From: Chitinophagales bacterium
Lineage (GTDB): Bacteria; Bacteroidota; Bacteroidia; Chitinophagales; UBA10324
Direction: 5' to 3'
NCBI GenBank assembly: GCA_025057275.1
Contig: JANWXQ010000032.1
Coordinates: 1 to 42,431 of the forward strand
Length of the DNA stretch: 42,431 nucleotides
Of the stretch, positions 13,810 through 14,770 are shown in pieces. Each line of letters opens with the position of its first letter. Position 1 is the first letter of the stretch. The notes beneath the pieces were generated by a model that made no database searches, was not told the DNA's origin, and saw nothing but the letters and a program-made list of their open reading frames with translations. A program made the translations under genes and the position numbers.

Positions 13810-14457
13810 ATGAGCCATACAAAAATACGGATTCTGATTGCCGACGACCATCGCATTTTCGTGGAAGGGTTGAAGCGATTGATTAGGCAGCAGAACCTTC
13901 ATTTGGCCGGAACGGCCTCATCCGGAGCGGAACTTTTGGATCTTCTGGAAAAGAAGGCTGCTGATCTGGTCATAATGGACATTCATATGCCAGATGCCAA
14001 TGGCATCAAGCTTACCGGTCAGATTATCCGAAAGTATCCCGGAGTTAAAGTTTTGGGATTGACCATGGTGGAAGATGGGCGGCAGATTGCGGCCATGATG
14101 CAGGCGGGTGCCAGCGGTTACTTGCTTAAAACATCTACTTCGGCTGAATTGCTGGAGGCCATACGTCGGGTGTGCAACGGCGAACGGTACCTGAGCCAGG
14201 ATGCTTCGCTGCGATTGCTGGAAGCAGAGCGTTCCGCCAAAAAGAAACCTCAGGCCCCAGCCATCCCACTGACCCGGCGTGAACAGGAAATTCTCCAGCT
14301 TATAGCCCGGGAGCTGACCAATAATCAGATTGCCCGCATGCTCAACAACAGCCCGATGACCATTGTCACGCACCGGAAAAACATTCTGCGCAAGCTGGGC
14401 GTGAAAAACACCGCCGGACTGATTCGTTACGCCATGCAGAACGGCCTGGTGGACTAA
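13810..14457 (+). CDS. NarL/LuxR-family response regulator
   Basis: A 215-residue two-component response regulator. The receiver domain (residues about 5-122) has the acidic pair ADD at 11-13, the phospho-acceptor Asp57 in LVIMDIHMPDANG and the conserved Lys in GYLLKTSTSAEL. The C-terminal HTH_LUXR domain reads LTRREQEILQLIARELTNNQ, IARMLNNSPMTIVTHRKNIL and RKLGVKN. ATG 13810 matches the family start (MSHTKIRILIADDH). An in-frame upstream start at 13762 would run through the predicted promoter. No histidine kinase is adjacent, so it is an orphan within this window. It is transcribed away from rel. Confidence 0.92.
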   Translation: MSHTKIRILIADDHRIFVEGLKRLIRQQNLHLAGTASSGAELLDLLEKKAADLVIMDIHMPDANGIKLTGQIIRKYPGVKVLGLTMVEDGRQIAAMMQAGASGYLLKTSTSAELLEAIRRVCNGERYLSQDASLRLLEAERSAKKKPQAPAIPLTRREQEILQLIARELTNNQIARMLNNSPMTIVTHRKNILRKLGVKNTAGLIRYAMQNGLVD

Positions 14458-14475
14458 AATATTTTTTACCACTTG

Positions 14476-14506
14476 TTGGTTAGTTAAAAATTACTACCTA
14501 CTTTTG
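14476..14506 (+). promoter_or_regulatory. Putative promoter of the structured RNA at 14511-14624
   Basis: TTG at 14476-14478, a 20-base spacer, then an exact TAnnTTTG box (TACTTTTG, 14499-14506). Predicted transcription starts at about 14510-14512, just before the first base of the closing stem of the downstream RNA candidate. Confidence 0.55.
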
Positions 14507-14510
14507 GGGA

Positions 14511-14624
14511 CACGAGAGGCTGAAGGCCGGCGTACGGATCGGAAAGTTTTTTTGGTGTTTTACTTTCCGGACTTGACCAACTCACGTTTCCCCTCAACCG
14601 ACGCCGCCCAGCCTCTTTTTTTTT
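14511..14624 (+). ncRNA. Candidate structured small RNA, family not recognised
   Basis: No convincing protein frame covers this region, but the two ends pair. AGAGGCTG (14515-14522) is the exact complement of CAGCCTCT (14609-14616). Inside it, GGC 14525-14527 pairs with GCC 14606-14608, GGCGT 14529-14533 with ACGCC 14601-14605, and CGG 14535-14537 with CCG 14598-14600. That makes 19 pairs interrupted only by small 5' bulges (AA, C, A). An inner hairpin, CGGAAAGT 14540-14547 with ACTTTCCG 14562-14569, has a 14-base loop. A T-run (14616-14624) directly follows the outer stem, as in a rho-independent terminator. An exact TAnnTTTG box ends four bases before the predicted 5' end. Expected RNA length is about 105-113 nt. 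6S-like or SRP-like identity was considered but the diagnostic motifs are not visible. Confidence 0.6.
14609..14624 (+). terminator. 3' arm plus T-run ending the candidate RNA
   Basis: The 3' half of the 8-pair outer stem runs straight into nine T residues (14616-14624). The pairing partner is about 90 bases upstream, so termination would depend on the folded RNA. Confidence 0.45.
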
Positions 14625-14651
14625 GGCTCAGACGGGCTGATCGGGGGTTTG

Positions 14652-14659
14652 TACCTTTG
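14652..14659 (+). promoter_or_regulatory. Putative -7 element for tRNA-Leu
   Basis: TACCTTTG matches TAnnTTTG exactly and lies 29 bases before the tRNA. The nearest TTTG upstream (14622-14625) is 26 bases away, longer than usual, so the -33 element is uncertain. Confidence 0.45.
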
Positions 14660-14688
14660 CCGGCGATACGGGGCAGGCAGCCCACAAT

Positions 14689-14770
14689 GCGGATATGGCG
14701 TAACTGGCAGCCGCGCAAGACTTAGGATCTTGTGCCGAAAGGCGTGGGGGTTCGAATCCCTCTATCCGCA
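14689..14770 (+). tRNA. tRNA-Leu (anticodon UAG)
   Basis: Acceptor arms GCGGATA (14689-14695) and TATCCGC (14763-14769) pair fully, with discriminator A at 14770. The anticodon arm is CAAGA-CTTAGGA-TCTTG, giving anticodon TAG. A long class II variable arm follows, then the T arm GGGGG-TTCGAAT-CCCTC (one G-T pair). Length 82, no CCA encoded. It reads CUA/CUN leucine codons. The trigger factor gene follows 84 bases later. Confidence 0.96.

Follow-up and report, generated by a model that had tools for sequence, protein, structure and literature searches.

Few small RNAs (sRNAs) of the Bacteroidota have, to our knowledge, been characterised. GibS and FopS, Bacteroidota sRNAs with known targets, both come from Bacteroides, and Shine-Dalgarno sequences are mostly absent from Bacteroidota mRNAs. 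The binding sites of FopS and GibS are in translation initiation regions, among them those of SusC homologues (PMC11697453, PMC7366714), and in the case of the FopS RNAs binding is near the start codons of the SusC homologues (PMC11697453). The locus described here lies in a window of 42 431 nt (the whole stretch of DNA analysed), which is contig 35 of a Chitinophagales draft genome of 2.48 Mb in 108 contigs. The predicted small RNA is present in one copy in this genome and, where the gene order was read, is preceded by rel (minus strand) and a LuxR-type response regulator and followed by tRNA-Leu and trigger factor. The features of the locus are listed in Table 1. Two mechanically called reading frames, 14504-14725 (+) and 14560-14718 (−), overlap the RNA and are without sign of being genes.

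Table 1. Features of the small RNA locus, in window coordinates.
Feature	Position	Strand	Basis
Small RNA gene (transcript predicted, with inferred ends)	14511..14624	+	Fold z −4.8; syntenic homologues; covariation
Putative −33 element TTGTTG, 20 nt 5' of −7 box	14473..14478	+	Sequence; consensus PMC7366714
−7 promoter box TACTTTTG (TAnnTTTG)	14499..14506	+	Exact match; 4 bases before 14511
Closing stem P1, 5' arm AGAGGCTG	14515..14522	+	Family alignment covariation
Outer helix inner part P2, 5' arm, small bulges	14525..14537	+	MFE fold; covariation
Apical hairpin P3, 5' arm CGGAAAGT	14540..14547	+	Family alignment pairing
Apical loop UUUGGUGUUUUAC, almost invariant, proposed as seed for pairing	14551..14563	+	Kept in 12 syntenic homologues, two structural forms
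Apical hairpin P3, 3' arm ACTTTCCG	14562..14569	+	Family alignment pairing
Bubble 3' side, unpaired, with conserved C-run (UUUCCCCU)	14570..14597	+	CCCC in 7/7 long-form sequences
Outer helix inner part P2, 3' arm	14598..14608	+	MFE fold
Closing stem P1, 3' arm CAGCCTCT	14609..14616	+	Family alignment covariation
T-run 3' of closing stem, probable terminator	14616..14624	+	T-rich tract in 12/12 homologues
Separate tRNA-Leu promoter box TACCTTTG	14652..14659	+	TAnnTTTG between RNA and tRNA, 12/12 genomes

A previous sequence-only reading of this DNA had described two ends exactly complementary over 8 bases, further outer pairing with small 5' bulges, an 8-pair inner hairpin, a T-run after the outer stem and a TAnnTTTG box four bases before the start of the RNA. 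All of these were recovered: the arms of P1 are exact reverse complements, P1 and P2 together form the bulged outer pairing in the predicted fold, and P3, the T-run and the box stand where they had been placed. The interval 14511-14624 folded at −42.7 kcal/mol (z −4.8), a value that was equalled or bettered by 0 of 200 shuffled sequences. When the frame was moved by 6 bases z fell to −2.6, and the folding energy alone is therefore only moderately unusual.

The RNA was kept in 12 of the 16 genomes examined from one Chitinophagales family, in every case directly upstream of tRNA-Leu(UAG). Among 100 related genomes, a search at the DNA level recovered a copy of 81% identity in the single genome of the same genus, together with short but real matches upstream of tRNA-Leu(UAG) in four genomes of the same family (G003, G007, G008 and G011). 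A covariance model run against 398 genomes of the order returned the same loci only, plus G004. A shorter form, missed by this and by a second covariance model, was found in five sister-genus genomes (G006, G010, G012, G014 and G015) by inspecting the region upstream of tRNA-Leu(UAG); it has the closing stem AACCGCC/GGCGGTT, a T-run and a hairpin with the same loop as the long form. Four short-form loci (L073, L077, L078 and L079) carry an extra conserved 5' hairpin, GTTTGTAGAAGACCTCAAAC, which lies upstream of the closing stem and after a promoter-like AACCTANNTT; the short-form transcript may be about 150 nt long.

The second model, which was built from all seven long forms, gave nothing convincing in 395 genomes of the class and no nearby new member, and two weak matches from that search in other members of the class (L135 and L136, E ~0.05) were taken as chance. 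Two syntenic matches, L095 and L104, were returned by a 19-mer pattern scan, and among its other matches the ones checked showed no more than a chance resemblance to the hairpin loop. A search of contigs via trigger factor found no relatives. A weak copy at the same place in G009 (L062, 1244-1330; E 0.07), which shares its genus with two intact copies, has apparently decayed. The RNA represents a genuine new small RNA family that is ordinary in kind and, within the genomes searched, confined to a single family of the Chitinophagales, a distribution in keeping with the specificity to a Bacteroidota lineage that had been suggested from the sequence.

The sequence-only reading had named a lack of compensatory changes in the stem across relatives as grounds for its refutation, and it passed this test. 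Of the 24 pairs in the alignment of the seven long forms, 15 showed changes on both sides, compared with a mean of 5.9 after shuffling, and 0 of 500 shuffles reached this number. Pairing held in 90.4% of cells, against 77.1% in shuffled alignments and 34-47% when the alignment was slid by 1-3 columns, and the covariation score was 0.454 against 0.200 shuffled, figures to which the fitting of the seven-sequence alignment to the covariance model is somewhat favourable. Both-side changes were seen in 8/10 pairs of P1 (95.6% of cells paired in the family alignment) and in all column pairs of P2 (74% of cells paired), and 94% of the P3 cells were paired in the family alignment. Even with a model-fitted alignment, it is difficult to account in any other way for the result of the sliding control and for a closing stem that has been exchanged wholesale. 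These data show that the structure is kept by compensatory change at a fixed position.

The consensus promoter of the Bacteroidota consists of TTTG at −33 and TAnnTTTG at −7 (PMC7366714). An exact TAnnTTTG box was present 9-28 nt 5' of the closing stem in 7/7 long forms, most of which have a TTTG/TTG word ~20 nt further upstream; the box is less clear in the short form. A T-rich tract follows P1 in 12/12 homologues and is shortest in G007 and G011. By this pattern the RNA is shown to possess a putative primary-sigma promoter of its own, and a closing stem followed by a T-run. Promoter, terminator-like 3' end and compensatory change, the marks of an independent small RNA gene, were all present on sequence evidence, and the complete gene that had been proposed between the response regulator and tRNA-Leu, with promoter, closed fold and terminator-like T-run, is supported. 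A cis-acting element, either a leader or attenuator of tRNA-Leu/tig or a terminator in the 3' UTR of the response regulator, would also account for the fixed position between these genes and for the large terminator-like structure. We regard this as improbable, as the RNA has its own box in all long forms and a T-run after the stem, and a plain terminator would not preserve a loop sequence. Moreover, a separate TAnnTTTG box for tRNA-Leu was found in 12/12 genomes, and the RNA is therefore not a leader of the tRNA.

Comparison with Rfam 15 gave only tRNA above the gathering score in the window, and the locus and its homologues otherwise scored at chance level. The earlier judgement that the RNA is neither SRP RNA nor tmRNA was borne out, with no match at the locus to small SRP RNA (RF00169) or to tmRNA at E up to 10, and only tRNAs found in the window by ARAGORN. 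The vague resemblance to 6S RNA that had also been drawn did not hold. RF00013, with which E. coli and B. subtilis give matches as controls, did not match the locus and scored above its cut-off in 0/10 genomes of the family; a search of the RNA's own genome with 6S-Flavo (RF01685), admitting E values of up to 10, gave no match, and the ACTCAAC core of that family is absent. The 21 matches to 6S-Flavo in the phylum that were compared are unrelated to the RNA in sequence and context.

A further region, L052 (1501-1649, minus strand, in G032 of the same order), scored 38 bits against 6S-Flavo, below the cut-off; it contains a ACTCAACACT core, and its flanks hold an outer stem of 11 pairs. L052 is likely to be a divergent 6S-Flavo RNA, which suggests that RF01685 misses 6S RNA in much of the Chitinophagales.

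It may still be asked if the RNA is a lineage-specific RNA of 6S type, a mimic of an open promoter that holds RNA polymerase. The closed stem, asymmetric bubble, apical hairpin and length of about 105 nt agree with this, and, with no 6S RNA detected in the RNA's own genome, the 6S post is vacant as far as RF00013 and RF01685 see. However, conservation does not fall on the bubble, which on its 5' side measures only ~5 nt, the form in the sister genus is much shorter and lacks the C-run bubble, neither 6S model matches the RNA, and the 6S-Flavo candidate L052 in the same order lies elsewhere in its genome. A 6S-type function is accordingly judged unlikely.

The most conserved part of the RNA is the apical loop and not the stem. 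The sequence-only reading, which offered no mechanism, had not singled out this element. UUUGGUGUUU was found in 12/12 homologues of both structural forms, G004 departing from it by a single U-to-A change and G001 by an additional U just after it. Around this constant sequence P1 varies between GAGGCUG/CAGCCUC, GCCGCUCA/UGAGCGGC and AACCGCC/GGCGGUU, and P3 between GGAAAG and UAGG, while the conserved C-run, which lies in the bubble on its 3' side, is confined to the long form and absent from the short form. A loop that is constant while its stem changes would be the signature of a contact site, with either RNA or protein. The conserved loop also contains a GTG, from which a small peptide could be encoded (GTG TTT TAC TTT CC...). 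This is hardly credible, as the length of the reading frames is not constant, those of G001 are shifted, and substitutions track base pairing rather than codons.

We estimate a probability of about one half that the RNA is a single-copy trans-acting sRNA of one Chitinophagales family, the loop of which pairs with leaders near start codons. Targets were sought with pattern scans. All perfect occurrences of AAACACCAAA, the 10-mer complementary to the loop, were collected from eight genomes of the family, nearly all of them with their surroundings, and were compared with those of one permuted 10-mer of the same composition, AAACCACAAA, in the same eight genomes. Sites 8-45 nt before the ATG of an open reading frame numbered 12/126 for AAACACCAAA and 3/131 for the control (Fisher p 0.014; p 0.04 with three ssb orthologues counted once), and most of the 12 sites end 3-12 nt 5' of the ATG. 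As evidence of pairing this near-start excess is suggestive only. Among the genes concerned are one for a TonB-dependent receptor (L155, with the Pfam domain Plug) and several for proteins with signal-peptide-like starts. Many of the candidate targets are probably secreted or outer-membrane proteins, in parallel with the FopS RNAs of Bacteroides. The ssb site was present in all three sister-genus genomes searched, inside a fully conserved stretch of the leader.

Other comparisons were negative. No near-start site complementary to the loop was found in the RNA's own genome, total counts of the loop complement gave no genome-wide enrichment (a 13-mer scan against its control, and the 10-mers in the eight genomes), and no orthologous set of targets recurred apart from ssb within one genus. 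Leaders from which the selected sites had been removed were no more complementary to the loop than shuffled sequences (13 against 14.7 for 7-mers, 7 against 4.3 for 8-mers). A preference of leaders for ACACC, unrelated to the RNA, may lie behind the near-start excess, but no such preference was seen in a small, underpowered set of leaders from outside the family. A recurring GTAAAACACCACA site was rejected as a common target, since the one clear case (L115) falls in a GKTPH-coding stretch and L131 has a different context; an 8-mer at 14405 in the response regulator gene was likewise set aside, as it falls within the stretch coding for VKNTAGL and relatives do not retain it. Partial loop complements were noted in the leaders of genes resembling the primary sigma factor (MRQLKI...), AAAACACC in L327 of the RNA's own genome and TTAAAAACAC in L372 of G012, and are possibly due to chance.

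The loop might instead be a binding site for protein, either an RNA chaperone of RbpB type or a sequestered regulator, with the RNA serving as a decoy or scaffold and no base pairing involved. The conserved unit, a small hairpin with a fixed loop, is typical of protein sites, the masked leaders show no excess of complementarity, and RbpB binds sRNAs in Bacteroides (PMC11697453). On the other side, the stem below the loop is free to change in sequence and variable in length, and a protein site does not predict that the loop complement should be enriched near start codons. Protein binding appears possible but doubtful, and antisense pairing is the leading, unproven, mechanism.

Under antisense pairing, the closing stem would protect the ends of the RNA and double as its terminator, and the P3 hairpin would display the U-rich loop UUUGGUGUUUU as a seed. 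This seed could start to pair, in kissing or linear fashion, with A-rich leaders (AAACACCAAA) directly 5' of start codons, and the RNA would then cover the leader; with Bacteroidota mRNAs mostly devoid of Shine-Dalgarno sequences, such coverage would block translation. The broader proposal, of a family-wide sRNA whose apical loop holds a seed suited to leaders that are A-rich and free of Shine-Dalgarno sequences, and which in this way controls secreted and outer-membrane proteins, is put forward tentatively. For the switch of the RNA, the adjoining response regulator is a candidate by position only. In the Chitinophagales this is a well-delimited new RNA family that covaries strongly, keeps a fixed place and has a clear candidate for its active site. 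Pairing of the loop with A-rich leaders, if it occurs, would show how antisense control operates in bacteria whose ribosomes are not dependent on Shine-Dalgarno pairing.

Set beside known RNAs, the family resembles 6S-Flavo (RF01685) in size (108 positions in that model), in its closed outer stem and in its occurrence in the Bacteroidota, but lacks the conserved ACTCAAC/GGAGTTT core and occupies a different genomic place. With 6S RNA (RF00013) it shares the outline of closed stem, bubble and apical hairpin, and differs in that conservation lies in the loop instead of the bubble. Like FopS and GibS it would be a trans-acting sRNA of the Bacteroidota with a seed covering translation initiation regions, as is proposed here, and its putative promoter is of the sigma-ABfr kind that FopS also have; the targets of FopS include outer-membrane transporters. 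Membership of the FopS or GibS groups was rejected, as the fold closes both ends, the gene is single copy and no Rfam match provides a link. FopS RNAs are about 65-70 nt long, occur in 14 copies and carry a 5' seed that is single-stranded together with a terminal hairpin, whereas the present RNA is encoded once, has both ends closed off by a long stem and is proposed to bear its seed in the apical loop, a design unlike that of the 5'-seed GibS and FopS of Bacteroides.
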